A stretch of DNA of 42,083 nt. It comes from Planctomycetia bacterium. GTDB lineage: Bacteria > Planctomycetota > Planctomycetia > Pirellulales > Thermoguttaceae. This document shows, piece by piece, positions 22,418-41,783 of the stretch. The DNA is taken from assembly GCA_030527105.1 (NCBI GenBank), contig JAUNBK010000008.1, positions 38,071 to 80,153 on the forward strand, written 5' to 3'. Within the stretch, counting starts at the first letter, position 1. Every line of letters begins with the position of its first letter. The notes beneath the pieces were generated by a model. It had not been told where the DNA came from. It did not search any database and saw only the letters and a list, made by a program, of their open reading frames with translations. The translations under genes and the position numbers were made by a program.

Positions 22418-22925
22418 GTCAAACGCCTGCGAATTAGTGTCAAAACGGAAAAACGAAACCTCATTGTACACGAAATTGCGAAATTTACCAGTACCAGCGG
22501 GCAAATTTTCACGAGAAGAGAATAGGAACCCTCAAATTGAATGACCCCCGTTTGTGTGTCAAAATCATAAATTCAAACAAACGCCTGTTTCGCCCCCTTT
22601 TTCGTATTTTTTTCAGAGAAAAACTTTCACATTTCGCAATCGATCCGATAAAATACATGTCCTAAAGATTGTTGTTCGAGAAGTCCGATGTTTTGGTCCG
22701 CATTCCATACAAATGTATTTGAGTGCATGAAAACCGGAGTGGAACTCACATCAAAACAACCTCAAAAACAATTAAATTAACGAATATCAATTCCCCAGAT
22801 ACGAACTACCCCCCCCCTTCAAAGAAGGGGAATTGAGGGAGACCTCCCACTCGAGCGCCAAGTTTCGGTATAATGATTTCCATAGGGGAATGTTAAACGA
22901 AAAACAATATTCGACGCAAAGATTC
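22418..22925. other. Gene-free region upstream of guaA
   Basis: About 508 bp, AT-rich, no gene I can support. It should hold the guaA promoter; a minus-strand TTGACA at 22557-22562 has no convincing -10. A 7 bp stem CCCCTTC / GAAGGGG at 22814-22830 has no T run. Nothing else is visible before repeat copy 7. Confidence 0.5.
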
Positions 22926-23042
22926 TATACTCGTTCTCCTTAAAAATTCCGTTTTTCGCAACGTTCCGCCCGCCGTTGGAGTTACGCACCACGGTTCGCA
23001 AAGCGTCGCGCAAAACGGGAATTTTAAAGGACGACGAGTATA
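22926..23042 (+). repeat. ~117 bp dispersed repeat with two like ends (family A, copy 7)
   Basis: Both ends are of the TATACTCG type: TATACTCGTTCTCCTTAAAA at the left, and AAAGGACGACGAGTATA at the right, giving nearly 30 bp inverted repeats. The centre CGCCGTTGGAGTTACGCACC is the usual core. It abuts the truncated start of the FGE remnant. Confidence 0.85.
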
Positions 23043-23440
23043 GAAACGGCGACAAAGCGAATTGCAATGGAAATTATCCCTACGGCACGAGCTCGAAGGG
23101 CAAGTATCTGGAGCGAACGACAGCGGTGAAGAGCTATTCCCCGAATGCATGGGGCTTGTACGACATGCACGGGAATGTGTGGGAGTGGTGCTCGGACTGG
23201 TATGGAGATTACGTGGAGTCGCCAACGAGCGACCCGAAAGGACCTCTTGGTGGTTCGGACCGAGTGAATCGTGGCGGTAGCTGGGGCGACGGCGTTGGCT
23301 TCCGCCTTCTCTTCGTCCCCCAGTTCATAGCCATTGCGCAGGCGAAACGAACGCAAGGGGGCGATGGCGGACGCTCCCGAGCAGTGAGTGAGAAGAGCCG
23401 TAGCGTCGAATGCGCGTTGTGGCGGAGAGGAAGTTGGTAG
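23043..23440 (+). pseudogene. Formylglycine-generating-enzyme-like (FGE-sulfatase domain) remnant
   Basis: C-terminal fragment of a SUMF1/FGE-type protein. It begins GDKANCNGNYPYGTSSKGKY directly at the edge of repeat copy 7, then has the hallmark WGLYDMHGNVWEWCSDWYG and SDRVNRGGSWGDGVGFRLLFVP. The N-terminal half is missing. Between RGGSW and GFRL, intact members have about 25-35 residues (a CRSAYR-like stretch), but here only GDGV remains, so an internal deletion is likely as well. The reading frame continues for about 40 residues without family similarity. FGE-like domains often occur in large numbers in planctomycetes and related phyla. Confidence 0.75.
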
Positions 23441-23911: not shown

Positions 23912-25340
23912 CTTGGCGTCGAGGAGCCGTTTGACGATTGCCACGTTGCCGCTTCGGACGGCAAAATTTAAGCAGGGCTGCCCAATCCTTTTGGAACCTT
24001 CTGGCGAAGCCAGCTCCAACGCGAGCACGCGGTCGAACATTTCGAGGCAGCCAGAGAGGCATGCATTCTGGAGTGAGTATTCGCTCAGAGGCACATTTTG
24101 CGCGAGGCGCCACTCAAAGAGAGGAAAATTCGAATTTTGTATGTTTTTGTCGAACCACGGCGTTAGGTCTTCTTTTGGGAAATCCTTGGTGGTTTTTTGA
24201 AATTCGTCGAAAATCTCTTGGTCGAAATGTTGCGTGACGAACTCCAATTTCAAGAGGAATTTGTCGTGATTGGAGGTGGCACGATTGACGAAGTGGCGCA
24301 GCAGCGTTTTGTTGCCGCTCATCGCAACCCGAATCACCAAATCGTGGGCACGCAAAGAGATCGCGCAGCCATGATCCTCCAAGAGTTCGATCATTGCGAG
24401 ATTCCCCCTCGCGCACGTCAAAAGATAGGGGTGTGCGACGTTTGGGTGCCTTCCTTGTGGCGTCGACGAATTCCTTTTTGGAGAAGAAAGCGCACCATCG
24501 GAACGCTCCCGCTTTGAATCGCGCACCACAGCAGATCCTCTCGCAAATCCTTTGGGGCAGCCTGCGTCGTCAAAAACTCCTCGTCGTACACGCGTTTCAT
24601 TAATTCCAAATTTCCCCCCAAAGCGATGTTCGAAATCAAATATCTCCCCAGCGAGTCCCGCACCTTGGCTCCGTACGGCAATTGAAACCGTTGCTGAACG
24701 TAGTCGAAGGTCTCCTCAGTTTCGTATGCCGCCCAGAAAAGCAGGGAATATTGTTCCGTCCTCGAAAGATTTTGCCCGAAGCGGTCGGGAAGATACGCCA
24801 ACATGGGAGTATTCTCACTCTCGGCAGCGGCATGGAGCCAATCGGATTGCGCATATTCGAATTTTGCGCCAAGAATGTACGCCTCCTCTGGCGGCGTCCG
24901 CGCCTCGAGTATGCTCAAAATTTTATCAAAACACTCCGGCGAGCATTTCATTGCCGTCTCTTTTAGGAGAGAGTGGGGACCTTCCGAATACCTTTACAAT
25001 ACTTCGCGTTAAGATTCCCGGTTTCGTCCGCCGCTGGAGCTACGCACCACGGCTCGTAAAGCGTCACACAAGACGGAAATTTTAAAGGAGAACGAGTATA
25101 AATCGAGGCAAACCTTTTGTTGGAGACCTTTTTCGGCGTCCAAACATCGACGCCCAGACGCACGAGTCGAAGGAGTTCCTCCTCGTCGCCACGCTCAGCA
25201 GCGTCGAACGCAAGGGTTAGATTGTCCTTTTGCGCTTCGGTTGCGTTTCGGCAGAGGCACCCTGTGCGGTTTCGTGAAAAATCGCGCAGCTTGTGAAAAA
25301 TAAGGCAGCGAGTGTCGAAAAACGGAAAATTAATTGTCAC
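23900..25340 (-). pseudogene. Ankyrin-repeat protein, interrupted by a repeat and a frameshift
   Basis: Reading from 25340, the N-terminal part (NLTLAFDAAERGDEEELLRLVRLGVDVWTPKK) is an ankyrin repeat. It is cut at 25100 by family A copy 8. Removing that copy with one TA brings the two sides into the same frame, though the junction codon itself reads TAA. The body resumes at about 24994 (SLLKETAMKCSPECFDKIL) and continues with helix pairs such as LEMFDRVLALELASPEGSK. At a T5 run at 24475-24479 (AAAAA in the coding strand) a one-base shift is needed to go from MVRFLLQK to NSSTPQGRHPNVAHPYLLTCARGN. The last codons (DAKANA) lie in the end of family B copy I. Ankyrin repeats bind proteins; the partner is unknown. 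Confidence 0.75.
24995..25100 (+). repeat. ~105 bp dispersed repeat inserted in the ankyrin gene (family A, copy 8)
   Basis: TACAATACTTCGCGTTAAGA at the left end and AAAGGAGAACGAGTATA at the right, with the core GGAGCTACGCACCACGGCTC. Its position inside a coding frame that resumes in phase on the other side shows that the family has moved. Both ends begin or end with TA, suggesting a TA target duplication. Confidence 0.85.
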
Positions 25341-25676: not shown

Positions 25677-25744
25677 AAAGTGGTGAGGTGCGAGACGAAC
25701 TCTCGCCAAATTTCAGGAGGATTCAATACGAAAAGGAGAATTAT

Positions 25745-28303
25745 ATGGCTTTTCCAAAAAAAGTGCCGGAGATTGTGCGGACGGTCTTGCCGCCGGGAGA
25801 GTGCTTGGCGAAGACGATTCGAACGACAGACGGGGCGGTAGAAAAAGGGTGCGACGTCCAAACGCACTTGAGGGCGACGGGGTTGGTTGGGCTGGCTCTT
25901 TTGGACTTTCTGAAGGGGACACGTGCGGGCGATTTGCTCGAAAGGAGGGATTTGCTCGGCGCGGTGCTCCACGACATCGGAAAGTTGACGCCTGCGTTTC
26001 AGGATAAGATTTATGGTGCGCTGGGAATGGCGCTGAATTTGGTTGCTGCGGAGGTAAAGGATGAAAATCATGCGGTCTCGTCGCGGGCGATTTTGGATGA
26101 TTGGGGGTTGGAAAATCTTGCCGAGTTGGCGGGCGATCACCACGGTAGGGCTTGTACGGGGAAAGCCGGTACTGCGTGTGTGGGTCAGAGCGGCTGGAGG
26201 GAGAATCAGCGTGCCGTGGCGGAGGCGTTGTGTTGCGAGTTCGGGTTGGAGTTGGAGGATGTGCCGTACAAGTGGGGTTCCCCGAAGTTCCGATTGGTGC
26301 AGGGTCTGACGTCGCTTGCGGACTGGCTCAGTTCCGGGCTGGAGCTTGGGGCGGAGGAGGAACTGTCGAACGCGAAAATCCAGTCGGCAGTGCATGGCGC
26401 GGGTTTCGTACCGTTTCGGGTGAGAGAGGGGCTGTCGTTCGAGGAGATTTTTGGGTTCCTGCCGTTTGCGGTGCAATCGCTCATGGCGGAGAAAATGGTG
26501 CCGGGCGGGGTGTATGTGCTCGAGACCGAGATGGGCGGCGGAAAGACGGAAGCGGCGCTCTATCTCGCGTATCGGCTGTTGGAAAAAGAGCGGCACAATG
26601 GGATATATTTCGCCTTGCCGACGCAGTTGACGTCGGACAAAATCCACGAACGATTCGGCAAATTCCTGGAGAAAATTCTTCCCGAGCAGGAATCGCGTCG
26701 GGCGCTTTTGCTTCATGGTCGAGCGTGGCTGCGGAACGAATTGTATAGTTCTGATGGCGAGGAAAACGAGCAGCGCGCGGTCGATCGTGACGCGTGGTTC
26801 GACCATCGGAAGCGGGGGCTTTTGGCACCATTTGCGGTCGGAACGGTGGATCAGCTACTGATGGCAGTCATCAATGTGCACTACAATTTCATGCGAGCGT
26901 TTGGCGCGGCGGGGAAGGCGATCATCCTCGACGAAATCCACAGTTACGACGCGTACACCGGGACGCTGATTCAGGCGTTGATCAAAATGCTGCGGGAAAT
27001 GAACTGCACCGTGATTCTCCTCAGCGCGACGCTCACTCGCCAGACACGTAACGACTTATTGGGAAATTCGGACGGAACGCCAAATCCGTTGGAATCGTGC
27101 TATCCGCTTTTGAGTTATCACGATGGAGAAGCGGTGCAATTTGAGAAGACGGAACCGCCTCAGAGCAAAACGGTGTCGATTGTTTCGAGCCGGAAAGTGG
27201 AGGATTCTATTGACCGTGCGTTGGAAAAAGCGGAAAATGGCGAGTGTGTTCTCTGGATCGAAAACACGGTGCGCGACGCACAGAATGTGTTTCGCATTCT
27301 CCGCGCACGAGCCGAGAAAAATATCCAGCTCGGGCTGATTCACTCTCGATTTCCGAGTTTCGTTCGTTCTCGACAGGAGAAAAAATGGACGGAACTGTAT
27401 GGAAAAGGTGTGGAGCCAGAAACGCGAGCGGGGGGGAAGATTCTCATCGGCACGCAAGTTTTAGAGCAGTCGATCGACATTGACGCGGACTATCTCCTCA
27501 CGCGACTCTGCCCGACGGACATGCTCCTCCAGCGCATCGGGCGTCTTTGGCGGCATCGGCGACTCGACGCCCTTCGACCGCCGTCTGCCCGGTGCGAGGT
27601 GGAAATTCTGAACGAGGAGCCGTTTGAGAATCGGGCGGAATATAAAAAGCCCCCGCATGAAGAGCATCGCGTCTATGCGCCGTATGTTTTAGCGCGCTCG
27701 CAGGAGGTATGGGAAAATCGGTCGAAAATCGCCCTGCCAAGCGACATGCGGACGCTACTGGAGGAGACGTATGCCGAGCGAGTGGAGACGGGGTATTATA
27801 AGGGGTTGAAGGATGATTTGGAAGAGCAAAAGGGGATGTTGAAAAGGCTTGCCTGTTTGAGTCAGGGAGATGCGGGGAAAACCCAGCAAGACGAGGAAGG
27901 GTTGCGCACCCGCTACGGCGAAAAAGCCACGGTGGAGCTGCTCCTTCTGGAGGAACGCGACCCGGAAAACAGGTGGATAAAACTCCACGGTCGGCAAGGC
28001 TCTTTGACGCTTCCGAGGAAAGATGCTTCGCGGGGGGAAAAGTTGCGTGCCTCCCGAATCCTGACGAACCACTTAATTCGCGTGCCGGACTACGCCGCGC
28101 CGACGTACGAGTCGTTCCCACTCGGATTTCTGAGCCACTTATTGTATATTGGTCGAGGAGACGAGCGTCCTATTCGCGCGGCGTTCATTGATCCCTGCGG
28201 GGGTAAACTCCGGGATTTTTCCCATAAGGAGGTTGAGTCGGAAAAATACGAGTTGGGATACCTCGAAGAAGTTGGGTATTTTTATACACCGAGGAAAAGA
28301 TAG
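25745..28303 (+). CDS. cas3: CRISPR-associated helicase-nuclease Cas3 (type I-E)
   Basis: The effector nuclease of type I CRISPR systems: recruited by target-bound Cascade, it unwinds and degrades foreign DNA. An N-terminal HD nuclease domain shows LLGAVLHDIGKLTPAFQDK (His76-Asp77) and LAGDHHGR. The SF2 helicase follows: Walker A EMGGGKTEAAL near residue 264, the DEAH-box variant ILDEIHSYDAYTG (Asp396), LLSATL, and motif VI QRIGRLWRHRR. The 852-residue length is normal. The ATG at 25745 follows AAAAGGAG; an upstream in-frame GUG/ATG extension is not needed. It lies 348 bp upstream of cse1 and is separated from it by a regulatory region, so it is probably transcribed independently. Confidence 0.96.
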   Translation: MAFPKKVPEIVRTVLPPGECLAKTIRTTDGAVEKGCDVQTHLRATGLVGLALLDFLKGTRAGDLLERRDLLGAVLHDIGKLTPAFQDKIYGALGMALNLVAAEVKDENHAVSSRAILDDWGLENLAELAGDHHGRACTGKAGTACVGQSGWRENQRAVAEALCCEFGLELEDVPYKWGSPKFRLVQGLTSLADWLSSGLELGAEEELSNAKIQSAVHGAGFVPFRVREGLSFEEIFGFLPFAVQSLMAEKMVPGGVYVLETEMGGGKTEAALYLAYRLLEKERHNGIYFALPTQLTSDKIHERFGKFLEKILPEQESRRALLLHGRAWLRNELYSSDGEENEQRAVDRDAWFDHRKRGLLAPFAVGTVDQLLMAVINVHYNFMRAFGAAGKAIILDEIHSYDAYTGTLIQALIKMLREMNCTVILLSATLTRQTRNDLLGNSDGTPNPLESCYPLLSYHDGEAVQFEKTEPPQSKTVSIVSSRKVEDSIDRALEKAENGECVLWIENTVRDAQNVFRILRARAEKNIQLGLIHSRFPSFVRSRQEKKWTELYGKGVEPETRAGGKILIGTQVLEQSIDIDADYLLTRLCPTDMLLQRIGRLWRHRRLDALRPPSARCEVEILNEEPFENRAEYKKPPHEEHRVYAPYVLARSQEVWENRSKIALPSDMRTLLEETYAERVETGYYKGLKDDLEEQKGMLKRLACLSQGDAGKTQQDEEGLRTRYGEKATVELLLLEERDPENRWIKLHGRQGSLTLPRKDASRGEKLRASRILTNHLIRVPDYAAPTYESFPLGFLSHLLYIGRGDERPIRAAFIDPCGGKLRDFSHKEVESEKYELGYLEEVGYFYTPRKR

Positions 28304-28343
28304 AAAATTCTCAAAAAAACGAGAAAAAATTCCCCCACCCCTA

Positions 28344-28372
28344 TTGACACGGAGGGGCAGATCGTGTAGAAT
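28344..28372 (+). promoter_or_regulatory. Promoter P1 of the Cascade operon or a short regulatory transcript
   Basis: TTGACA, 17 bp, TAGAAT. The expected start site is near 28379, exactly where the crRNA-like guide's target begins. Confidence 0.75.
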
Positions 28373-28376
28373 GCAA

Positions 28377-28396
28377 AACGCTAAATTGGTTGTTGA
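28377..28396 (+). promoter_or_regulatory. Cascade operator: target of the crRNA-like guide, with AAC PAM
   Basis: AAC at 28377-28379 is followed by GCTAAATTGGTTGTTGA. The spacer-like segment of the downstream mini-array reads GCTAATTTGGTCGTTGA. They agree at 15 of 17 bases; mismatches are at positions 6 and 12, and homology ends at 18. Type I-E Cascade flips out every sixth base, so these mismatches should cost nothing. Confidence 0.75.
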
Positions 28397-28479
28397 TAAA
28401 TAATGGTAAATCGGATTAGTCGTTAGCAATAAAGTTTTCTGCCACACAAACTGTTTTGCAAATTTTATTTTGCCCATCA

Positions 28480-28508
28480 TTGACACGAGAGTGACAATGC
28501 GATAGAAT
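28480..28508 (+). promoter_or_regulatory. Promoter P2 upstream of the crRNA-like gene and cse1
   Basis: TTGACA, 17 bp, TAGAAT: same boxes and spacing as P1. Expected start near 28515, about 39 nt before the first repeat-like element. Confidence 0.75.
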
Positions 28509-28553
28509 CAGAAGGTGTGGTTCGCAATCCATGATGCGTCGATAGGATTGCAG

Positions 28554-28632
28554 GCTTTCTTCCCAATTTATGGAGGGATGTTTCGGCTAATTTGGTCGTT
28601 GAACCATTTTCCCCACAATGTGGGGCTGTTTT
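28554..28632 (+). ncRNA. crRNA-like regulatory RNA (CreR/CreA-like degenerate mini-CRISPR)
   Basis: Two degenerate copies of the array repeat flank a 21-nt spacer-like segment. Element 1 (28554-28584) keeps the repeat's 5' GCTTTC and its last ten bases GGGATGTTTC, so the crRNA 5' handle is intact, while the stem is altered. Element 2 (28606-28632) keeps TTTCCCCAC and GTGGGG, the Cas6e hairpin, with AAT instead of GCGA in the loop, then TGTTT. Cleavage by Cas6e would give a small crRNA with a spacer of about 20 nt. The spacer-like part matches the P1 start site. Families known from other systems, CreA (antitoxin guide of CreTA) and CreR (cas autorepressor), have this design; assignment here is by inference. 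Confidence 0.8.
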
Positions 28633-28651
28633 ACCAGAAAGGAAAATTCGA

Positions 28652-30196
28652 ATGAGTTCAGAAAAACCCACTTTCAACTTGGTGAACAAGCCGTGGATTC
28701 CCATTGCGGGGGTCGGCGAGCGCAGCCTCCGGGATGTGTTCGAGCACCCCGAATACCAACGTTTGGGCGGCATGCCTGTGGAGAAAGTTGTGATCCTTCG
28801 CCTGCTCTTGAGTATCGTGCATGCTTCCACGCAGATTCCCGATAAAAAAGCGTGGCGGAAGTTGACGCCGGAGCAGATAGCGCGAAACGCCCTTGCCTAC
28901 CTCGAAAAGTGGCACGATCGTTTTGATTTGTTCGACGAGGAGCATCCGTTTTTGCAGTTCCCGCAGTTGAAAGGGAAGTGTGAGAAAGCGGGGCTGGAGG
29001 GCATCGCGTGGACGGCAGCCAGTGGAAACAAGACGCTTTTGACGCAGTGGAGCGACATGAAGTGTTTTTCCGACGCAGAGGTGGCTCGGCTGCTCCTCTG
29101 CGGCACATGTTATGGCGGCGGGGGCAAAAAATACGACTACAAAGCCAAAGTCGATCCTGCTGGTCCAGACAAGAGCAAGTCCGCTTCTCAGGGAACACTG
29201 ACGGGCTACAGTGGTTATCTTCATTCGTTTATGCTCGGGGAGACGATTCTGGAGACGATTTATCTGAATTTATTGACGGAGGAGGATCTGAAGAGGCCAA
29301 GCATATTCAGCGAATTGGATCCTTGGGGGCGTCCCTTTTGGGAAGCGATGCCGACCGACGAAAGCGGCTCCACTGCCGAGGCGTACCGTTCGACATATCA
29401 GGGGCATTTGTTTCCGTTAAATAAGTTTTTTTGCTTGGATGGAGACGCTCTTTTGATGACCGAAGGCATTTCCTACCCCACGCACAAGGCAGGACAATGG
29501 GACCCGGGAATCGTACTTTTGTATGGCAAAAAGCCGGAGGATACGCGTGCGCTCTGGTGCGATACCGAGAGGAAGCCGTGGCGGCAACTGACGGCACTGC
29601 TGGAATTTATGAACCAGGATAGTCATTCCTCCATGCCGGCGTTTATCGTTCGTGGGCTAGACAAGATGGACCGAAGCATCGACCGAACGTTCGGGATTTG
29701 GACGGGCGGCGTGGGTGTCAACTGCAACTCTGGGGAACAGTACGTCTCCGCCAAAAAAGACTACGTCGAGTCGGATTTCACCATCCCGATGAGTTGGTAC
29801 CACGGCGAGAACAACGTTTTTTTCGAGCGCTACAAAAATCTCATGCAGACGTTGGACGATTACGCTGATGCCCTATATCGTGCGGTCGGGCGCTATTTCA
29901 AAATACTGAACGAGCAGCGCAGTGGAGACTTGGCATCGCAGGCGGTGCAGCTTTTTTGGGAGAAGATGGAACCGCAGGCGCAGGCGATTATTGATTTGAG
30001 TTTGGAGGAAGAGGACTCCGAAATGGTTCTGGCTGCGAAAAAGGCGTGGTGGGGCGTGGTGCGTTCGTGCTACGACCAGTTTTGCTCTCACCAGACACCG
30101 CGACAAATTCAGGCGTACGTCCAAGGTGCGCCATACGTTGGTAAGAAATCGAGCAAGGCAAAATCAACCAAGAAAGCCAAAAAGGAGAAGGTATGA
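28652..30196 (+). CDS. cse1: Cascade large subunit Cse1 (Cas8e)
   Basis: Cse1 recognises the PAM and recruits Cas3. The 514-residue protein begins with the family signature FNLVNKPWIPI and continues SLRDVFEHPEYQRLGGMPVE, as in other Cse1 proteins; DRFDLFDEEHPFLQFPQL is the other conserved stretch. The ATG at 28652 has AGAAAGGA upstream. An earlier in-frame start would lie within the crRNA-like element and is rejected. Its stop overlaps the cse2 start by 4 bp. It is the first gene of an operon that runs to cas2, whose leader carries the crRNA-like gene. The last 20 residues are Lys-rich, which is unusual. Confidence 0.95.
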   Translation: MSSEKPTFNLVNKPWIPIAGVGERSLRDVFEHPEYQRLGGMPVEKVVILRLLLSIVHASTQIPDKKAWRKLTPEQIARNALAYLEKWHDRFDLFDEEHPFLQFPQLKGKCEKAGLEGIAWTAASGNKTLLTQWSDMKCFSDAEVARLLLCGTCYGGGGKKYDYKAKVDPAGPDKSKSASQGTLTGYSGYLHSFMLGETILETIYLNLLTEEDLKRPSIFSELDPWGRPFWEAMPTDESGSTAEAYRSTYQGHLFPLNKFFCLDGDALLMTEGISYPTHKAGQWDPGIVLLYGKKPEDTRALWCDTERKPWRQLTALLEFMNQDSHSSMPAFIVRGLDKMDRSIDRTFGIWTGGVGVNCNSGEQYVSAKKDYVESDFTIPMSWYHGENNVFFERYKNLMQTLDDYADALYRAVGRYFKILNEQRSGDLASQAVQLFWEKMEPQAQAIIDLSLEEEDSEMVLAAKKAWWGVVRSCYDQFCSHQTPRQIQAYVQGAPYVGKKSSKAKSTKKAKKEKV

Positions 30197-30717
30197 CCGA
30201 AGAGACAAAAAATAAGGACTATATCGCCAGTTTTGTGACGTATGTCACGACCAAGATTCAGGGCGACACTGGTTTTCGCGCCGCCATGACGCGAGCGGAC
30301 AATCCCGATACCGAGTCGCAGGCGTGGAGGTATCTGGTTCATTTCTGCGATTTGGGGAATCCTTGGCAGCGCCTCCCGCTGGGACTTGTGGGAGCTGCGA
30401 TTGCACGAAAACGGGTGACTCAGGACGGCACACAGCAGCTGGGCGAGGCGCTGCGGCTCTGCAAACAATCGATTCAGGACGATGATGACAGCGTGGAGCG
30501 CAAATTGCGACGGCTGCTTGCGTGCGATTCGTCGCTGGAATTGGTACAGGTTCTGCGTCCGGTTCTCCAGTTCGTGCAGAAGGGGGAGAGAGTTTCGCTG
30601 AATTACGCCCAACTTTTGCGCGACGTCCTCTACTTTTCCGAGAGGGTCAAATTGCAGTGGGCGAAACAATATTACGGTCAAAAACAGGAGGGCGACGCAT
30701 GTACCTCTCCCGAATAA
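30193..30717 (+). CDS. cse2: Cascade small subunit Cse2 (Cas11e)
   Basis: Helical small subunit that lines the Cascade belly and stabilises the displaced DNA strand. The protein of 174 residues shows the Cse2 pattern: FRAAMTRADNPDTESQAWRY, then ARKRVTQDGTQQLGEALR and VERKLRRLLACDS. It overlaps cse1 by 4 bp and cas6e by 19 bp, so translation is coupled on both sides. Confidence 0.9.
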   Translation: MTEETKNKDYIASFVTYVTTKIQGDTGFRAAMTRADNPDTESQAWRYLVHFCDLGNPWQRLPLGLVGAAIARKRVTQDGTQQLGEALRLCKQSIQDDDDSVERKLRRLLACDSSLELVQVLRPVLQFVQKGERVSLNYAQLLRDVLYFSERVKLQWAKQYYGQKQEGDACTSPE

Positions 30718-31277
30718 GTTTAACGCCACGAACCTTCCGCAAGTTTGTGCAGGACGACTACTCTATTCACAAGTTGGTGTACAACCTGTTTGCCGACGCG
30801 GAGGGTTCTCGATTGTTGTATGTGGACAAGGGAGGACGGCGAGGGGTTTATACCATTCTGGTTCTTTCCCCAAATTTGCCGAAAGTGCAAGACGAAATCG
30901 ACGTGGAGACCAAGCCGGTCGCCGAGTCGTTTTTGAACCATCGTCAATATGCTTTCGAGGTGGTTCTCAATCCCGTTCGCCGAAACGGCAAAACGCGGAA
31001 ACTGGAGCCTGTGGAGGGGCTGCTTCCGCTCTTGCAGTGGTTTCTCGAAAAGGCGAAGGCGAACGGTTTCGCACCAGATGAAAAGCGTCTGGTGGCAAAA
31101 ACCCAATCGGTTCAAACGTTTACCGCGAAAGAAAATACGTTTACTCAGCACAAAGTCGTTTTTTCCGGCACGCTGACCGTGACCGATCCTGACCTGTTTG
31201 CGGCGGCGTTCGCCAACGGAATCGGGCGCGGAAAAGGCTTCGGTTTCGGTCTGCTTCAACTTACCCCTATTTCCTGA
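30699..31277 (+). CDS. cas6e: crRNA endonuclease Cas6e
   Basis: Cuts the pre-crRNA after each repeat hairpin and stays bound to it. The sequence MYLSRISLTPRTFRKFVQDD is the family start, and His24 in YSIHKLVYNLF corresponds to the general catalytic histidine of the family. The glycine-rich end GIGRGKGFGFGLLQLTPI is the conserved RNA-binding loop. The length of 192 residues is slightly short of the E. coli enzyme. The true start is the ATG at 30699, inside the end of cse2; the frame is open well upstream but without similarity. Its position between cse2 and cas7e differs from the E. coli order, where it follows cas5e. Confidence 0.93.
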   Translation: MYLSRISLTPRTFRKFVQDDYSIHKLVYNLFADAEGSRLLYVDKGGRRGVYTILVLSPNLPKVQDEIDVETKPVAESFLNHRQYAFEVVLNPVRRNGKTRKLEPVEGLLPLLQWFLEKAKANGFAPDEKRLVAKTQSVQTFTAKENTFTQHKVVFSGTLTVTDPDLFAAAFANGIGRGKGFGFGLLQLTPIS

Positions 31278-31312
31278 ATATTCATTGAATCACCAAAAGA
31301 AAGGACATTCCC

Positions 31313-32386
31313 ATGTCGAAAAACAATCCGTATCTGAATACCCGAGTCGAATTTCACATTCTCCAATCGTTTCCCGTTTCGTGCCTGAACCGCGACGATG
31401 TGGGTGCGCCGAAGTCTGCCATGATTGGCGGAGTCCAACGTGCACGCGTCAGCAGCCAGTGCTGGAAGCGCGCCATTCGAATGGCAATGCACGATCTGGG
31501 CATCGAAATCGCAATGCGAACTCGTTATGTCACTTCGGTGCTTGCCGACGCTTGCGCCGCCTTGGGAGCCACGCCGGAAGCCGCTCTTGCGTGTGGGGAG
31601 GCTGTTGCCAAAACCTTGACGAAAACCGTCAAAGATGGGCAAAGCGACACGTTGTTCTACATTTCTCAGGCGGAAGCGACGGCTATTGCCGAGTTCTACT
31701 GCGAAAACGCATTCGACGCCAAAGCCGATCTCAAGCCCGTCCTGAAATCGCTCAAAGTCAACACCGATCGGGACGGGGTAGACATTGCCCTCTTTGGACG
31801 TATGGCGGCAAGCGCGCCCGAGGTGAACGTGGAGGCTGCCGCATCGTTTGCCCACGCCATTTCGACGCACCAAGTCGCGGCGGAAATCGAGTTTTTCACC
31901 GCAGTTGACGACCGCAACCCTAAGGAAGAAACCGGCTCCGCACACATGGGGTCGTTAGAGTTCAACTCGGCAATTTATTATCGCTACATCTCGGTTGATT
32001 TGGGCAAGCTCTACGAAAACCTCAACGGCCCCGAGGATATGTCGGTGGGCATAGATGCCTTCGTGAAAGCGCTCTATGGGGCGGTTCCAGAAGCGCGCCA
32101 AACGACCATGGCTGCCGCGACGCCGTGGGACTACGCAAAAATTTTCGTCCGCAAGGGGCATCGGTTCCAGGTCTCTTTCGAGGATCCGTCGAAAGCGGGT
32201 CGGGGCGAAACGCTTCTGGAGGCGAGCAAAAACGACCTTCGAAAGCAGTTGGAGCGCATCGAAAAACTGTCCGGCTCCCTCTTTGGCAAAATCAGCGAGT
32301 ACGAGTTTGGAGAGAGCCTTGATTTTTCCATCGACGACTTGGCACATGCTCTCAACGCGGACATCCAAAAGATTGCAAAACCGTAG
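31313..32386 (+). CDS. cas7e: Cascade backbone subunit Cas7e (Cse4/CasC)
   Basis: Six copies of this protein form the helical backbone that holds the crRNA; its thumb kinks the guide every sixth base. Family stretches are NTRVEFHILQSFPVSCLNRDD, GGVQRARVSSQCWKRAIR and the later HVAAEIEFFTAVDD-like segment (here HQVAAEIEFFTAVDDRNPKE). The 357 residues match the family. AGAAAGGAC is the ribosome binding site, 36 bp after cas6e. Confidence 0.95.
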   Translation: MSKNNPYLNTRVEFHILQSFPVSCLNRDDVGAPKSAMIGGVQRARVSSQCWKRAIRMAMHDLGIEIAMRTRYVTSVLADACAALGATPEAALACGEAVAKTLTKTVKDGQSDTLFYISQAEATAIAEFYCENAFDAKADLKPVLKSLKVNTDRDGVDIALFGRMAASAPEVNVEAAASFAHAISTHQVAAEIEFFTAVDDRNPKEETGSAHMGSLEFNSAIYYRYISVDLGKLYENLNGPEDMSVGIDAFVKALYGAVPEARQTTMAAATPWDYAKIFVRKGHRFQVSFEDPSKAGRGETLLEASKNDLRKQLERIEKLSGSLFGKISEYEFGESLDFSIDDLAHALNADIQKIAKP

Positions 32387-32395
32387 GAGGTCGCG

Positions 32396-33109
32396 ATGAA
32401 ATACCTGTTTTTATGGCTGGAGGCACCGCTGCAATCGTGGGGTTTTGATTCCCGATTCGACCTGCGTGCCACCGCCCTATTTCCCACAAAGTCGGGCATC
32501 TACGGCTTGCTCCTCGCTTCCAGCGGCGACTCCGGTCCTCAGACGGATCTGCTGGCCCAAATGCGGGACGCGTCGTTCCTTGCGGTCGATTTTCGCAAGC
32601 CGGGGGATGCGGCACCCCAACTCCGAGACTACCACATGGTCGGCAGTGGCTACGATAAAAACGACCCGTGGGAGAAACTCCACATCTTGAAAACCTCCGA
32701 GGGAAAACCTGCCGTGGGGGGCGGTGCCAAGCAGACCTACCGCTACTACCTTCAGGACAAGAAATTCGGCGTGGTGATTGCCTTCCCCGACGACCTTGCG
32801 GACAAATTCGCGACCAGCCTGCAAAACCCGGTGTACGATTTGTATCTCGGGCGAAAATGCTGCGTTCCGACCGATTTTATCTATCGGGGCGTATTCCCCT
32901 CGGAAGAAGAAGCGTGCACGGCGATGGAAGCGCTGGCGGAGGGCAAAGGTTTGGTTCCTGACCGGTGTTTTCGGGATACCGACGTGGAAAACCCGGATGG
33001 GTTTTACATTTCCGACGTTCCGGTGGAGTTCGGCGAGCGCAAGCGCTATGTCGATCGCTGCGTTGTTATAGAGCCTTACGTTTGCGCGGGAGCGGCGAAA
33101 GATGGGTGA
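32396..33109 (+). CDS. cas5e: Cascade subunit Cas5e (CasD)
   Basis: Binds the 5' handle of the crRNA. The start MKYLFLWLEAPLQSWGFDSR and TALFPTKSGIYGLLLAS are diagnostic of Cas5 proteins, and DYHMVGSGYD with QTYRYYLQDKKFGVVIA fits the I-E type. Length 237 residues. A strong TAGGAGGTC ribosome binding site lies just before the ATG. Its end overlaps cas1 by 8 bp. Confidence 0.95.
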   Translation: MKYLFLWLEAPLQSWGFDSRFDLRATALFPTKSGIYGLLLASSGDSGPQTDLLAQMRDASFLAVDFRKPGDAAPQLRDYHMVGSGYDKNDPWEKLHILKTSEGKPAVGGGAKQTYRYYLQDKKFGVVIAFPDDLADKFATSLQNPVYDLYLGRKCCVPTDFIYRGVFPSEEEACTAMEALAEGKGLVPDRCFRDTDVENPDGFYISDVPVEFGERKRYVDRCVVIEPYVCAGAAKDG

Positions 33110-33953
33110 TCCGCTGATTATTCGCACGCAGCTTTCCAACATCCCCATGCTCAGGGACAGATACCCTTTTTTGTACTTGGAGCATGGGCGATTGGAAATT
33201 GACGACTCCAGCGTCCTCTGGGTCGGCGCGGACGGAAGCCGCATTCCGCTCCCCGCCGCCACCATCTCCACGCTCCTTCTGGGACCAGGCACCACGATCA
33301 CCCACGCAGCGGTCAAAATCCTCGCGTCCCTGAACGCCACAGTCTGCTGGGTGGGCGAAGATTCCCTCCTTTTTTACGCAGTAGGAACGACGCCGACCTC
33401 CAACACGTACAACCTGAAAAAACAACTCGCGCTGGCGACCGATCCCAAAAAATCGTTGCAAATCGCCCAAAAAATGTACTCCCTCCGCTTCCCCGACGAA
33501 GACGTCTCCAACCTTCCTCTGAAACAACTCATGGTCAAAGAAGGCTACCGCATTCAAAAGCTCTATTCCGAGCTGGCGGAGAAGTACCAAGTCGGCTGGA
33601 AAGGTCGTCGCTACACGCCCGGGAAATTCGAGTTGAGCGACATCACGAACCAACTGATCACCTCGTGCAACGCGGCTTTGTACGCCCTGATTTGCTCGAT
33701 CCTGTACTCCCTCGGTCTCGACCCCCGCATCGGTTTCGTCCACTCCGGCTCCCCACTCCCCTTCGTATACGACGTCGCCGACCTGTACAAAGAAAAGCTC
33801 GTATTCGACCTTTCCTTCCACCTAACCTCCCAGCTCGCTGGCACTTACGACCGCCGTTTGGTGTTCGAATCTTTCAAAACCCGGCTCCTCGATGAGAATT
33901 TCATGACCCGCTGCCCGCAAGATGTCCTCAACCTTTTAGGAATTAAAAAATGA
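33102..33953 (+). CDS. cas1: CRISPR integrase Cas1 (type I-E)
   Basis: With Cas2 it inserts new spacers next to the leader. The family's metal ligands appear as Glu in MVKEGYRIQKLY, His in IGFVHSGSPLPF and Asp in VYDVADLYK. The 283-residue length is normal. Overlaps with cas5e (8 bp) and cas2 (4 bp) place it in the operon. Confidence 0.96.
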   Translation: MGDPLIIRTQLSNIPMLRDRYPFLYLEHGRLEIDDSSVLWVGADGSRIPLPAATISTLLLGPGTTITHAAVKILASLNATVCWVGEDSLLFYAVGTTPTSNTYNLKKQLALATDPKKSLQIAQKMYSLRFPDEDVSNLPLKQLMVKEGYRIQKLYSELAEKYQVGWKGRRYTPGKFELSDITNQLITSCNAALYALICSILYSLGLDPRIGFVHSGSPLPFVYDVADLYKEKLVFDLSFHLTSQLAGTYDRRLVFESFKTRLLDENFMTRCPQDVLNLLGIKK

Positions 33954-34240
33954 TCGTCATAGTCGCCAACCACATCCCCGACGCCGTCCGAGGCAAACTC
34001 AAGCTCTGGTTCATCGAGCCGAAACCGAACGTATTTGTATCGGGCGTGAAAGACTCCGTCGCGCTCAAAGCCGCCGACCTCGTGATGTCCCACTGTCCCG
34101 AGTCGTCCGGTCTCCTCATATTCCGTTCGACGCCCCACCCCCCCGGCTTCATCATCCACGCCAAGGGCACGCCCGCGAAATCGATCACGTATCTTTCCGG
34201 TCTCCAACTCATCCGCGACCCACCCCATCCCCAAGGCTAG
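33950..34240 (+). CDS. cas2: CRISPR integration factor Cas2 (type I-E)
   Basis: The bridging subunit of the spacer integrase. The protein of 96 residues begins MIVIVANHIPDAVRGKLKLW and has SGLLIFRSTPHPPGFIIHAKG, both typical of the I-E branch. It overlaps cas1 by 4 bp. Its stop codon TAG lies within the terminal inverted repeat of family B copy II, so the very last residue or two may come from the element's insertion. Confidence 0.95.
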   Translation: MIVIVANHIPDAVRGKLKLWFIEPKPNVFVSGVKDSVALKAADLVMSHCPESSGLLIFRSTPHPPGFIIHAKGTPAKSITYLSGLQLIRDPPHPQG

Positions 34241-34609: not shown

Positions 34610-37600
34610 GCTTTCCCCACGCGAGTGGGGATGTTTCCAAGCGGATCGCTCAGGATGCTCGATTTCGAGCGCTTTCCCCACGCGAGTGGGGATGTTTCTG
34701 GGGCGAACGTTGGATTTCGAAGTTTGCGATTGCTTTCCCCACGCGAGTGGGGATGTTTCATTCTTTCAGAGCGTCCGCGTCCCTTCTTGCGAGCTTTCCC
34801 CACGCGAGTGGGGATGTTTCCGCGCTCGAGCCGGTCGAAAGTCGGCAGCCGCAGCTTTCCCCACGCGAGTGGGGATGTTTCTTACCATCGAGCACCGGCT
34901 TGTTTACAACTTTGGCTTTCCCCACGCGAGTGGGGATGTTTCAACTGTTGATGAATCTCCTGATCCCCTTGAGTGGCTTTCCCCACGCGAGTGGGGATGT
35001 TTCCGCAACCCGCCGACACCGGGATGTGATTGTTCGGCTTTCCCCACGCGAGTGGGGATGTTTCGACTTTGCACAGATTGCAGTGAGACTCAACAGGGCT
35101 TTCCCCACGCGAGTGGGGATGTTTCTCCAGAAGAAGGGGTTCGCGCTCCGCTTTGAAAGCTTTCCCCACGCGAGTGGGGATGTTTCCCCATTCGATTCTT
35201 GTGCAAAGTCCAAAAACAAGCTTTCCCCACGCGAGTGGGGATGTTTCATTGTCCCCGATGTTCTGGAAAATCTTCACAATGCTTTCCCCACGCGAGTGGG
35301 GATGTTTCTTTTCGTCTCGGCAATGTCATTAAGAACTGTCTGCTTTCCCCACGCGAGTGGGGATGTTTCTTAGATGATCCGAGCCATTTTGCTAAGTCTG
35401 CAGCTTTCCCCACGCGAGTGGGGATGTTTCCGCACTCGCGAGCCATCTCTGAAACCGTAAAAGGCTTTCCCCACGCGAGTGGGGATGTTTCTATATCTAT
35501 GATGACTTTAATAATTTACACAAAGCTTTCCCCACGCGAGTGGGGATGTTTCTGAAAATCCGGAGGAAGAGGGAGGCGAACAGCCGCTTTCCCCACGCGA
35601 GTGGGGATGTTTCCCTGCCAGACCTGAACACGCCGGCTATCCGCGAGCTTTCCCCACGCGAGTGGGGATGTTTCCGCGTGTGTTGCGTCCTCAGTATCAT
35701 GAGGACGGCTTTCCCCACGCGAGTGGGGATGTTTCTTGGAATAAGCCCCGCAGAAGATTATAACGCCGGCTTTCCCCACGCGAGTGGGGATGTTTCCGCC
35801 TGCTCTGGATCAATGACGGGTTCAAGACTGCTTTCCCCACGCGAGTGGGGATGTTTCAAAAGGAAAACGTTAAAAAAGGAGCGTGAACGAGCTTTCCCCA
35901 CGCGAGTGGGGATGTTTCCCTTGCGTTAAACACACGCAGTGATTTTTCTCGGCTTTCCCCACGCGAGTGGGGATGTTTCCGTTCTTCCCAGTCCCATGAG
36001 GAGGGACGGAGGGCTTTCCCCACGCGAGTGGGGATGTTTCTTTTCGATTTTTCGTAAAGATCGGCAGATGGAAGCTTTCCCCACGCGAGTGGGGATGTTT
36101 CTGCTGGTTCAAATATTACGGGCAATTTAAGCAAGCTTTCCCCACGCGAGTGGGGATGTTTCTTATTACTTTGTGATATTGGAGACTGACAAGTCGCTTT
36201 CCCCACGCGAGTGGGGATGTTTCTCACGGCAGAGTCAATCAATAGACTCCGGAGCGGCTTTCCCCACGCGAGTGGGGATGTTTCTAACAACATGCCACAC
36301 CGTAAAAGAAGGGGAGAGCTTTCCCCACGCGAGTGGGGATGTTTCCGATGGCGAGTTTGTTTTCGAGTGTAAAAGTTGGCTTTCCCCACGCGAGTGGGGA
36401 TGTTTCCAGGGAGTCCTGAACGCGGAACGACAGGCTACTGCTTTCCCCACGCGAGTGGGGATGTTTCTGGGAGTTCCCCATATTTGGATACATCTTCTTT
36501 GCTTTCCCCACGCGAGTGGGGATGTTTCTGACGCTCGAAGAGATATGGCGTCTTGTGCGAAGCTTTCCCCACGCGAGTGGGGATGTTTCGCCTTCCCTTT
36601 CGGCAGAATGCTCCTTAACCGGGCTTTCCCCACGCGAGTGGGGATGTTTCTAACTCTCTATACGACTGAATTTTGCTCAACAAGCTTTCCCCACGCGAGT
36701 GGGGATGTTTCCGGGACGATATCTGCCCCCCATTTTTGATCTTCGCTTTCCCCACGCGAGTGGGGATGTTTCTAAGCAAAAAATATTTGCAAAAGGTGGT
36801 ATCAGGCTTTCCCCACGCGAGTGGGGATGTTTCTCTTTTCGAGGTCTTCCATCGTCGGCGTCTTGTGCTTTCCCCACGCGAGTGGGGATGTTTCTCGTTG
36901 CTCTTGCAACACTCATTATCTTGCTACGCTTTCCCCACGCGAGTGGGGATGTTTCTCAGTCTCCGTGGGTTAGCAGCCCACCTCAACGGCTTTCCCCACG
37001 CGAGTGGGGATGTTTCGATGGATCCGTGCTCTATTGGATGTTTCGGTGCGCTTTCCCCACGCGAGTGGGGATGTTTCTGAGGCGTACCGTTCAATGCCGA
37101 AGCGCTCCGTGCTTTCCCCACGCGAGTGGGGATGTTTCCATGGAATCGGTTGGTGAACGCGAATACATCGGAGCTTTCCCCACGCGAGTGGGGATGTTTC
37201 TTCGGTTTCCTAAACCGTCCGGTACTGGATCGTGCTTTCCCCACGCGAGTGGGGATGTTTCTGGGGAATATCATGCTTGGTACCTCCTCCCGCAGCTTTC
37301 CCCACGCGAGTGGGGATGTTTCTTCAGAGGCATTATTTTCCCCAGATGTTCTCTGGCTTTCCCCACGCGAGTGGGGATGTTTCTTTTTTGTCCCGACGTG
37401 AAAGCCGATATTCTCAGCTTTCCCCACGCGAGTGGGGATGTTTCTTGCAGGAACGCGCCCATGAAGCCCGGAATGTTGCTTTCCCCACGCGAGTGGGGAT
37501 GTTTCTGGATTTCATCGACGAAAGACTCCGCAAAATCCGCTTTCCCCACGCGAGTGGGGATGTTTCTTCAGACGGAACCTATTTTTTGTATGGATTTGGG

Positions 37601-40600
37601 CTTTCCCCACGCGAGTGGGGATGTTTCTTTTATCAATCTCCGAACCGGATATCTTCTGATGCTTTCCCCACGCGAGTGGGGATGTTTCTTGGCTGAAAAG
37701 TTGTGTGATATCGCGCGTTATGCTTTCCCCACGCGAGTGGGGATGTTTCCCTCCGAAGCTCCTGTCAGCTTCGCAAGTTGGCGCTTTCCCCACGCGAGTG
37801 GGGATGTTTCTAACAACGCCTGCCTTTTTCAGAAAAAAAGGCAGCTTTCCCCACGCGAGTGGGGATGTTTCTTTATATCGTCTCCCCGAGGAGTCCCCCG
37901 AGAGGCTTTCCCCACGCGAGTGGGGATGTTTCTCTTTTCGAGCGACAGTGTGCGGAAAATTCTTGGCTTTCCCCACGCGAGTGGGGATGTTTCTGATGGA
38001 CTCTACCTTTGCGACGATGGGGAGTAGCTTTCCCCACGCGAGTGGGGATGTTTCTCCGATACCCCTTGCAACTTTCCACCACGTTCGGCTTTCCCCACGC
38101 GAGTGGGGATGTTTCCAAAAAACCGCCCGCGTGTGTGAAAATCGTGGCTGGCTTTCCCCACGCGAGTGGGGATGTTTCTCAATATCTTTTTTGAACCCGA
38201 AGCGCTCCTTGGCTTTCCCCACGCGAGTGGGGATGTTTCTGCTTCGCTTTTCGCCTCTCGTGTCTCTGCGGAGCTTTCCCCACGCGAGTGGGGATGTTTC
38301 TGGAGGTGTTGACGTTTTTTCACCAAGCACCCCGCTTTCCCCACGCGAGTGGGGATGTTTCCCACAAGAAAACAAAGACCAGTATCTGCGCCGAGCTTTC
38401 CCCACGCGAGTGGGGATGTTTCAGATCGAAAGCGAAGAGGAAATTTTGATTTGATGCTTTCCCCACGCGAGTGGGGATGTTTCTTACACCCGGGTCTTCT
38501 GACTCCGCTGTCATGCGCTTTCCCCACGCGAGTGGGGATGTTTCTCGAAATGGAAAAGCTATTCTACTCTTTAACGAGCTTTCCCCACGCGAGTGGGGAT
38601 GTTTCCTGTTCCGCCGTCAGAAGAACCCCCTTCTCCATGCTTTCCCCACGCGAGTGGGGATGTTTCTGTGATACAAAAAGGAAGTACGGCGTCGTCGGCG
38701 CTTTCCCCACGCGAGTGGGGATGTTTCTCGAATACCGATAGGTTGTCCTGTGCACCGTTAGCTTTCCCCACGCGAGTGGGGATGTTTCGTACTTAGTCTG
38801 GTACTTGACACTTAACAGACTGCTTTCCCCACGCGAGTGGGGATGTTTCTGCAGATTGAATCCAACTTTTTATCTTGTCAAAGCTTTCCCCACGCGAGTG
38901 GGGATGTTTCCATCTTTTAAAAAAGAAAAAGTTCAAACACGTGGCTTTCCCCACGCGAGTGGGGATGTTTCGCTCTTCGAGCGCGACCGCCGCGCGCGAC
39001 ATACGCTTTCCCCACGCGAGTGGGGATGTTTCGATACGTGTCAAGCCCACACGGCTACTAGACCGGCTTTCCCCACGCGAGTGGGGATGTTTCCGGCGTC
39101 GACCGCGTTATCGTTTCTTCGCGGGTGCTTTCCCCACGCGAGTGGGGATGTTTCCATAGCATGGAAGGGTTTCGGGCGTTCGTCATTGCTTTCCCCACGC
39201 GAGTGGGGATGTTTCCAATGCGTGCCCGCACGATGATACGCTTCCGCTGCTTTCCCCACGCGAGTGGGGATGTTTCTACATATCAAACCCACACAACTAC
39301 TAAACCACAGCTTTCCCCACGCGAGTGGGGATGTTTCTTACCAACGCGGAAAAGCCCTTACTCCCTAAATGCTTTCCCCACGCGAGTGGGGATGTTTCGC
39401 CACAAGTGACGCGCGGAGCGCGTAGTCTATCGCTTTCCCCACGCGAGTGGGGATGTTTCTGTGCTGGCACTGTGCGGCCAGTCAAAGATCGGGCTTTCCC
39501 CACGCGAGTGGGGATGTTTCGTACACAAGTACCCAAGCCCATAAAATGAGGATGCTTTCCCCACGCGAGTGGGGATGTTTCCACTTGCAGAGATTCTCAC
39601 AATCAAACCGGAGGGCTTTCCCCACGCGAGTGGGGATGTTTCGTTTTCTGCGGTCTAGCAGCCGTGTATGATAGTGCTTTCCCCACGCGAGTGGGGATGT
39701 TTCCATGTAACAATATTGGGGGGGGAAAAGATCGGGGCTTTCCCCACGCGAGTGGGGATGTTTCCATTCGGATAGTTTCTTATCCGACTTATATCGTGCT
39801 TTCCCCACGCGAGTGGGGATGTTTCCGTTCTTCCCAGTCCCATGAGGAGGGACGGAGGGCTTTCCCCACGCGAGTGGGGATGTTTCTTCAATTTTTTGTG
39901 GGAGGTTCACGAGAAGTAGGCTTTCCCCACGCGAGTGGGGATGTTTCTTGGTCATTGTGCCGATAGCACCACCCACTTTCGCTTTCCCCACGCGAGTGGG
40001 GATGTTTCTCGTCTTCCTGCAAGAGGGTTTTTCCCTCCTCAGCTTTCCCCACGCGAGTGGGGATGTTTCTCAGATTATTTAGTCGTTATCTTTGGTTCTC
40101 GTGCTTTCCCCACGCGAGTGGGGATGTTTCTGGGTGCCAGCCCCCTTCCGACCATGGACAAAAGCTTTCCCCACGTGGCGGCAAGGTAGTTTCTCTTGGC
40201 GAGCTTTCCCCACGCGAGTGGGGATGTTTCTTTGCGCCGCTCGTTCTGTTCGGACGTTATGGAGCTTTCCCCACGCGAGTGGGGATGTTTCCTTGTGATG
40301 GTTTCTACTCGTTCGTGAGGTACGGCTTTCCCCACGCGAGTGGGGATGTTTCCAAATCGACCGCAGAAATCTTCCCTCGCATACAGCTTTCCCCACGCGA
40401 GTGGGGATGTTTCTAGCAGATATGTCAAATAAAAGTTTAAAAAAGTGCTTTCCCCACGCGAGTGGGGATGTTTCCGCAAAAAAGTTTCATGCCCCCGTTG
40501 CTGCCTGGCTTTCCCCACGCGAGTGGGGATGTTTCCGCCCCCGAAAGGGGGAAAGGAAATTTTAAGATGCTTTCCCCACGCGAGTGGGGATGTTTCTAAT

Positions 40601-41783
40601 AGTTTGTGAAAGTCTAAAAGGAGTAAGTGGCTTTCCCCACGCGAGTGGGGATGTTTCTGGGTTTTGCTCCAACAGCCCCCACTTGACCGCGCTTTCCCCA
40701 CGCGAGTGGGGATGTTTCTTGTGGCGCACGTGTATCGAGGGCTGGATGTGCGCTTTCCCCACGCGAGTGGGGATGTTTCCATTCGAACGAGAACACCGTC
40801 CATTGGCGGTAGGCTTTCCCCACGCGAGTGGGGATGTTTCTATCCAGAGAGTTTTGCAACGACAATCCGGGCAGCTTTCCCCACGCGAGTGGGGATGTTT
40901 CTCGTCGTGTTGAGGTAAAATACACGATGCGGCAGCTTTCCCCACGCGAGTGGGGATGTTTCCCGAACGGTCTATAGTATCAGTATGCTGTGTGAGCTTT
41001 CCCCACGCGAGTGGGGATGTTTCTCACTTCGGGAAGAGTTGACGACTGCTGGCGGGGCTTTCCCCACGCGAGTGGGGATGTTTCTTACCCCCGTGCCTTT
41101 TGACTCCGCGATCAGCCGCTTTCCCCACGCGAGTGGGGATGTTTCCAGTGAAGTTGAATGCGGTTACGACTGTTGTAAGCTTTCCCCACGCGAGTGGGGA
41201 TGTTTCCCATCTTCCAACTTTTTATATGCCTGACCAAGGGCTTTCCCCACGCGAGTGGGGATGTTTCTACAACAAACTACCTTATAATCAACAGTAACAA
41301 GCTTTCCCCACGCGAGTGGGGATGTTTCTGGAGCGTAGCCACACAGACGATTTTTAGAAAAGCTTTCCCCTTTTAGAAAAGCTTTCCCCACGCGAGTGGG
41401 GATGTTTCCTGGTTGTTGAGAACATCGGAAACTTCAGTCTCGCCTTCCCCACGCGAGTGGGGATGTTTCTGCAAGCATTATGCGATAGAGCACGGCAAAT
41501 GAGCCTTCCCCACGCGAGTGGGGATGTTTCTTGGGACGAAGTAAAAAAGTCCCAACGGGATTTTACGACGAAGCTTTCCCCACGCGAGTGGGGATGTTTC
41601 TGTGTATCGCCCCGGACTTATGCGCTTCCGCAAGCTTTCCCCACGCGAGTGGGGATGTTTCTTTATGGTATAATACCTTTAACAATTGAGGGATGCTTTC
41701 CCCACGCGAGTGGGGATGTTTCTTTATGGTATAATACTTTTAACAATTGAGGGATGCTTTCCCCACGCGAGTGGGGATGTTTC
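34610..41783 (+). CRISPR. Type I-E CRISPR array, about 117 repeats and 117 spacer units
   Basis: The constant part is 28 bp: GCTTT, then stem CCCCAC, loop GCGA, stem GTGGGG, then ATGTTTC. The unit is 61 bp, so 33 bp are variable. Because the first variable base is T or C in about 88% of units, the functional repeat is probably 29 bp and the spacer 32 bp, the type I-E norm. The start of the array next to the promoter is perfectly regular; two spacers are 34-35 bp (units 42 and 58). Irregularities cluster downstream: a degenerate repeat at 40164, a partial repeat at 41362, two T-to-C variants at 41442 and 41503, a 42-nt spacer at 41531, and near-identical last spacers. This gives leader at the left, trailer at the right. 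Confidence 0.98.
40164..40193 (+). repeat. Degenerate repeat inside the array with a 9-nt spacer remnant
   Basis: GCTTTCCCCACG is followed by TGGCGGCAAGGTAGTTTC instead of the normal stem and 3' part; the Cas6e hairpin is lost. Only nine bases separate it from the next intact repeat at 40203. Confidence 0.8.

Follow-up and report, generated by a model that had tools for sequence, protein, structure and literature searches.

Ahead of cas8e in a type I-E CRISPR-Cas locus lies a spacer-like segment that resembles a site over the predicted start of a promoter of the same operon, and the question raised by this arrangement is whether Cascade is guided to the promoter of the genes that encode it. 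According to our analysis of the window, that is, the whole stretch of 42,083 nt of Planctomycetia bacterium DNA considered here, the element is very probably a CreR: a crRNA-like RNA which is predicted from the sequence to guide Cascade to P1, a promoter of its own operon, and which likely blocks transcription there. CreR is reported for type I and type V-A systems, with type I-E among the cases (PMC13131331), and is described as a crRNA-like RNA that partially matches its own cas promoter, in a homeostasis that opens when crRNAs or anti-CRISPRs divert Cascade (PMC12737573).

The window contains a complete type I-E set, namely cas3 and all the I-E cas genes, together with a long array.

25688 to 28303, + strand: cas3 (type I-E; PADLOC Cas3e, E = 1.5e-147)
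28652 to 30196, + strand: cas8e (cse1), gene 1 of the Cascade operon (TIGR02547, 144.6 bits against a cut-off of 70.05)
30193 to 34240, + strand: cas11e, cas6e, cas7e, cas5e, cas1e and cas2e (profile matches)
34610 to 41783, + strand: CRISPR array with the repeat GCTTTCCCCACGCGAGTGGGGATGTTTC in 117 copies, 115 exact and 2 with one mismatch

From cas8e onward, the intergenic distances are, in order, -4, -19, 35, 9, -8, and -4 nt. Guide, target, and the two predicted promoters all lie within the 348-nt gap between cas3 and cas8e, and the effector genes of the cognate type I system thus adjoin the guide; since cas3 is upstream of P1, it falls outside the predicted CreR-controlled transcript. Cas8e could be aligned with named records from three MAGs labelled "Planctomycetia bacterium", two labelled "Thermoguttaceae" (from water deer rectum and goat colon), and, at a greater distance, a Lentisphaeria MAG from goat rumen, which makes a gut planctomycete the most likely source of the window. 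The gap itself is organized as follows.

28344 to 28372, + strand: predicted promoter P1 (TTGACA at 28344-28349, 17 nt, TAGAAT at 28367-28372; 11/12 consensus)
28377 to 28379, + strand: target PAM AAC, read from the sequence
28380 to 28396, + strand: guide target, covering the predicted start of P1 (15/15 outside positions 6 and 12)
28480 to 28508, + strand: predicted promoter P2, untargeted (TTGACA at 28480-28485, 17 nt, TAGAAT at 28503-28508; 11/12 consensus)
28557 to 28584, + strand: psiR1, degenerate first repeat (17/28 overall, handle 7/7)
28586 to 28605, + strand: guide (spacer) of the predicted CreR, 20 nt, with G28585 as the 29th or -1 base
28606 to 28632, + strand: psiR2, second repeat (20/27 with one loop gap), with the hairpin CCCCAC-AAT-GTGGGG at 28611-28625
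28636 to 28643, + strand: RBS-like AGAAAGGA ahead of cas8e, read from the sequence

The guide, which lies in the leader of the Cascade operon, is flanked by repeat-like elements that provide a 5' handle conserved at 7/7 positions and a 3' hairpin. psiR1 ends in the same 7 nt as the array repeat, ATGTTTC, and the guide RNA would be expected to carry the 5' handle AUGUUUCG. Otherwise psiR1 is weak, since its 17/28 identity to the repeat is reached at 6 positions of 1-34500, and the case for it therefore rests on the exact handle and on its location. The 6-bp CCCCAC/GTGGGG stem of psiR2 was intact in both the folding and the terminator scan. The folding of psiR1 was no better than that of shuffles (z of -1.04), with z values of -1.32 for the whole mini-array and -3.76 for the array repeat, and no Rfam family matched at E<=1 across 28250-28700. 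The end of psiR2 reads CTGTTTT in the window and in the related genome G001, compared with ATGTTTC in the array, and it has a terminator-like score; psiR2 might also attenuate read-through into cas8e. Ordinary type I-E arrays, with near-identical repeats and 32- to 33-nt spacers, share the identical handle, the same-stem hairpin, and the same PAM rule, whereas here one 20-nt spacer lies between degenerate repeats and its target is in its own operon.

The positions of the guide can be numbered independently of its target. In type I-E of E. coli, the 29th base of the repeat is copied from the PAM. Base 29 of the window's array units is T in 66, C in 35, G in 9, and A in 5 (n = 115; T or C in 101/115), while the three positions beyond it are near even in composition. 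The 8 nt 5' of the guide are ATGTTTC followed by G; the end of the handle and the 29th base fix spacer position 1 at 28586 and predict a PAM that ends in T or C, and the target is indeed preceded by AAC. Since the handle sets this register on its own, the register of positions 6 and 12 was not fitted. Ahead of the guide itself, base 29 is G, found in just 9/115 array units. The same comparison of the array's 29th base with the PAM of the target or site gave T12 C5 (n = 17) and AAT in G001, T23 C11 A2 G1 (n = 37) and AAT in G005, T13 C11 A1 (n = 25) and AAC in G006, and G38 C4 A1 (n = 43) and AAG in G570.

Aligned in this register, the guide at 28586-28602 (GCTAATTTGGTCGTTGA) and the target at 28380-28396 (GCTAAATTGGTTGTTGA) are identical at 15/15 positions outside 6 and 12 (1-5, 7-11, and 13-17) and unlike at 6, at 12, and then at 18, 19, and 20, which bears out the three blocks of agreement and the end of homology at 18 claimed by the initial annotation; the interval quoted there, 28377-28396, consists of the PAM AAC plus the 17-nt target. 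As position -1 is also unlike (G28585 on the guide side, C28379 on the target side), the match spans exactly spacer positions 1 to 17. In 3000 dinucleotide shuffles of 28304-28556, scored on both strands, the best score was 13/15, reached in 3 shuffles, and the next-best site in the 42-kb window agrees at 11 of the 15 positions. Throughout the 4.1-Mb assembly, the exact 15-position pattern occurs at the guide and the target only, with 3 further places at 2 mismatches versus 10 for a reversed control pattern. An antisense action of the guide RNA was rejected, because this RNA and the P1 transcript run in the same sense and so cannot pair.

Target position 1 lies 8 nt past the -10-like hexamer of P1 (a 7-nt gap), which agrees with the earlier placement of the target over the expected start of this promoter. 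Since the promoter scan found 2 sigma-70-like sites in the gap against a shuffle mean of 0.9 (sd 1.1), P1 and its start are to be read as predictions; the guide thus has a PAM-flanked partial match to the predicted promoter of its own cas operon. P2 scores the same as P1 and is free of the guide target, so that a block of P1 need not fully silence the operon. A 7-codon open frame (28403-28426) lies between the target and P2, in a part of the gap absent from G001.

We compared the locus with seven genomes of the same genus, six of which carry cas8e. The same layout was found in G001, whose Cas8e is 62% identical to that of the window. Its gap is a short version, with a promoter-like counterpart of P1 (TTGATC-17-TATAAT, 10/12 consensus), a 7-nt gap, the target, 44 nt, the handle, the guide, the hairpin, and cas8e; the target reads AAT|GTTGAAGTGGTAGTTAA, the handle GTGTTTCG, the 20-nt guide starts with GTTGAAGTGGTTGTTAA, and the 7-nt spacing between the -10-like hexamer and the target is the same as in the window. 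Between the two genomes, the target differs at 2, 4, 7, 12, and 16, and the guide at these five positions and also at 6. At the paired positions 2, 4, 7, and 16, guide and target have changed to the identical base, while drift is seen at 6 in the guide only and at 12 in both, and within G001 the sole mismatch between guide and target is at 12. Were the four target changes placed at random among 15 positions, the odds of such a coincidence would be 1 in 1365, with the bases themselves uncounted. The G001 pattern at zero mismatches was found at its guide and target only in the whole genome. Covariation outside the flipped positions had been proposed as a check of the initial annotation, and the one relative of the same layout behaves as predicted, although the covariation, seen in one species pair, could stem from the target having been recopied into the guide and not from stepwise change.

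The same gap could in principle house a CreTA module, in which P1 would transcribe a small toxic RNA from between the target and P2 while the guide and Cascade silence this toxin, making the cell Cascade dependent. There are 83 nt from target to P2, with the 7-codon frame among them, and creTA modules are described in the cas3-csy1 gaps of Acinetobacter (PMC10097628). Yet we consider this reading improbable, since in G001 the target is separated from the handle by just 44 nt, of which 21 nt belong to psiR1, leaving little room, the small frame has no clear ribosome site by eye, and the terminator scan gave no hit from P1 to P2. CreA of CreTA, known from Acinetobacter I-F and haloarchaeal I-B systems, is alike in its psiR1-psiS-psiR2 order and its PAM (PMC10097628, PMC8501985) but differs in that it targets a toxin promoter, in contrast to the Cascade promoter here, with scant room for a toxin in G001. 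The Acinetobacter I-F CreA has a 20-nt psiS unpaired at 6, 11, and 18 (PMC10097628), and in the H. hubeiense I-B CreA mutation of 6 or 12 is silent whereas 1-5 and 7-11 are required (PMC8501985).

The genome nearest by Cas8e, G005 (81%), has no target and shows seeming relics of both repeats and of the guide beside cas8e. In the G005 genome, no target with <2 mismatches was detected for this relic guide, and 12 places with 2 mismatches compare with 30 for a control pattern. G005 has lost the cas8e-linked device, and the element is not conserved throughout the genus. That the window's element is likewise a functionless remnant of a CRISPR array whose spacer happens to match itself is very improbable: the degenerate repeats and the dead version in G005 would fit decay, but the joint change at four paired positions with drift at 6 and 12, and the conservation of the 20-nt length and of the target geometry, are hard to explain unless pairing is under selection.

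Beyond the window and G001, ectopic I-E-type guides with AAN-flanked partial targets were identified in three more congeners and in one genome of another family, in support of a CreR-like reading of the element. In G007, no guide adjoins cas8e; a lone repeat on a separate contig is followed by TGTATCGGTTACATTA.

L078, 1500-1610: G007 guide
L015, 335-351 and 433-449: the two G007 sites, with mismatches at 6 and 12 (and at 17 or 18)

With positions 6 and 12 left out, TGTATCGGTTACATTA occurs in exactly three places in the G007 genome, namely the guide and the two sites 5' of cas8e. Site 1 (AAC) is within a TTGACA-17-TATATT promoter-like site and site 2 (AAT) is 98 nt downstream; promoter-like sites there were not clearly above chance (2 versus 2.5 in shuffles). 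We rejected a reading in which the two sites are each other's partners, or the operator of a protein, because a third, handle-bearing copy on another contig makes them two targets of one guide. For the window, too, it is hardly credible that the two segments form a direct-repeat operator bound by an ordinary protein repressor. Repeated sites are common near promoters and one copy is at P1, which would fit an operator, but in two species the second copy is placed precisely between the handle of a CRISPR repeat and a repeat hairpin, the mismatches keep a 6-base register, and the G007 guide is on a separate contig behind a CRISPR repeat.

The remaining three ectopic guides with targets are 32 nt long, compared with 20 nt in the window and G001.

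L095, about 2448-2660: CreR-like gene of G570 (other family), PAM AAG
L099, about 5315-5395, - strand: G005-C63 mini-array, with its site at 5539-5558 (- strand), PAM AAT
L099, 5910-7082 and 7301-10030, + strand: cas12a ORFs of G005-C63, 390 and 909 aa (PADLOC Cas12a, E = 4e-68, for the first ORF)
L097, reverse complement, 1390-1640: G006-C63 mini-array, with its site just 3' of its own TTGACA-16-TACAAT promoter-like site

In G570, the mini-array is oriented away from cas8e and comes with its own promoter-like site and a terminator-like hairpin of 12 bp; the PAM AAG overlaps the -35 of a promoter-like site facing cas8e, and the guide mismatches its target at 6, 17, and 18. The G005-C63 guide and its site differ at 12 alone within 1-19 and then at 20. 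Both this mini-array and its target are in the gap ahead of the Cas12a locus; no strong promoter-like site was found at the target, and promoter-like sites in G005-C63, 7 versus 4.7 by chance, are not clearly in excess. The G006-C63 mini-array lies away from cas8e, and its site (AAC) is mismatched at 6, 12, and 15-17. This T-rich guide makes the weakest pair: the site ties with another one 8 kb off, and a closer match of 13/14 (mismatch at 1), inside the G006 cas8e, is preceded by ATT, not AAN. The 298-aa protein after the G006-C63 site had neither a PADLOC match nor one in Pfam that passed the cut-off.

In total, eight ectopic guides were examined, six of which have targets (window, G001, G570, G005-C63, G006-C63, and G007), and two have no accepted target, namely the cas8e relic of G005 and the C9 mini-array of G002. 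The latter (L105, 1436-2855) comprises two repeats and a self-complementary spacer just 5' of a 457-aa ORF whose GPNASGKT motif is presumably that of a P-loop ATPase; no AAN-flanked target was detected for it, and its best match is its own opposite strand (12/14). The repeat patterns tried revealed no guide directed at cas8e in G002, G003, or G006, and G004, without cas8e, has a three-repeat array. Whole-genome match searches covered the guides of the window, G001, and G007 and the relic guide of G005. A scan of 40 loci 5' of cas8e returned a 15/15 pair with a handle in the window and G001 only, further leads in G007 and G570, and array repeats in G002; 14/15 matches in 11 more loci, none with both a handle and AAN, were taken as chance. 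By eye, cas8e directly abuts the preceding open frame in G006 and in several loci of other genera, with no comparable gap. In 57 loci, the window included, a hairpin-and-handle scan yielded 9 guides for testing and found G005-C63 and G570 again; the window, G001, and G006 do not pass its requirement for a perfect stem.

The initial annotation had read the free drift at 6 and 12 as what selection for Cascade binding would produce. Across the seven sites of these six guides, 11/11 mismatches within positions 1-14 are at 6 or 12 (9/9 without G006), in line with that reading, and 7/7 target sites have an AAN PAM. For the control, four of these genomes contributed 212 array spacers, in which 97/685 mismatches fell at 6 or 12 against 97.9 expected, equal to chance; each array spacer was given its best match over six regions (11.5 kb, both strands), each ectopic guide its own region only. 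At least 12/14 was reached by 24/212 control spacers, 5 of these with AAN, and one (repeat at 37050) matched a site at 29378 in cas8e at 14/14, with GCC before it and 19/32 overall, which looks like chance. The pairs of G570, G005-C63, G006-C63, and G007 first surfaced by scores ignoring 6 and 12 or by repeat search, and all were re-scored on 14 equal positions. The seven sites do not count as independent, given that one guide serves both sites of G007 and that window and G001 are homologous, which leaves the product of 4.3e-11 as no more than indicative.

For the mechanism, we infer that P1 and P2 would transcribe psiR1-guide-psiR2 together with the Cascade operon, and that Cas6e would cut in psiR1 and psiR2, freeing the guide RNA and shortening the 5' leader of the cas8e mRNA to about 26 nt. 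The guide RNA would then load into Cascade and direct its binding to the template strand over the start of P1, where bound Cascade would sterically block RNA polymerase and so act as a feedback brake on its own genes, with P2, downstream of the target, supplying a basal level. Competition from immune crRNAs for Cascade, or its inactivation by an anti-CRISPR, would free P1 and allow more Cascade to be made. Cleavage of the target is not to be expected from so short a guide, of which only 15 bases can pair. E. coli Cascade has maximal affinity at a PAM-proximal match of <=18 bp while interference demands more pairing (PMC5904413), and repression by type I-B spacers of 20-24 nt comes with neither interference nor priming, a 20-nt spacer being a far weaker repressor (44-65% of transcript left) than 21-24 nt (PMC10989794). 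The window guide has this weak I-B length of 20 nt, which counts against the CreR reading.

Taking all the species-specific guides together, in cis or in trans, it is conceivable, if doubtful, that I-E Cascade serves this genus as a rewirable silencing platform, re-aimed with the flip-out code kept: at the Cascade promoter in the window, G001, and G007, at the guide's own promoter in G006, and at the control region ahead of the Cas12a locus in G005, where one CRISPR system might hold a second in reserve until Cascade is knocked out.

The CreR kind is already known, type I-E included, and what is unusual here is the clean evolutionary record of base flipping. Published CreRs are likewise crRNA-like RNAs that partly match the promoter driving their own cas genes (PMC13131331, PMC12737573), whereas the present case comes from a planctomycete genus, its match consists of three 5-base blocks that change together between two species, and the G007 guide is on another contig and has two sites. 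Our literature search, which is weak evidence of novelty as the primary CreR paper (Liu 2023, Cell Host Microbe) was outside it, returned no natural guide-target covariation under the six-base rule, no CreR encoded away from its two sites, and no type I-E guide with a target close to cas12a. The comparison of relatives suggests that guide-target pairs can turn over fast among related species. It also amounts to a natural mutational scan, in which the mismatches of the seven sites within the first 14 bases are all at bases flipped by Cascade, so that evolution records which bases are read. A register-aware search rule follows, which asks for the handle, a PAM (AAN here), and a match at 1-5 and 7-11 while skipping 6 and 12; it can find CreR and CreA genes that a plain identity search misses, including those far from their target.

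Elsewhere in the window, a 2275-aa open frame (9919-16746, - strand) contains DNA repeats about 2.9 kb apart, and related dispersed repeats of about 50-116 nt are present in the non-cas parts at 3408-3460, 4512-4564, 6372-6487, 6625-6709, 22924-23050, and 24993-25108.
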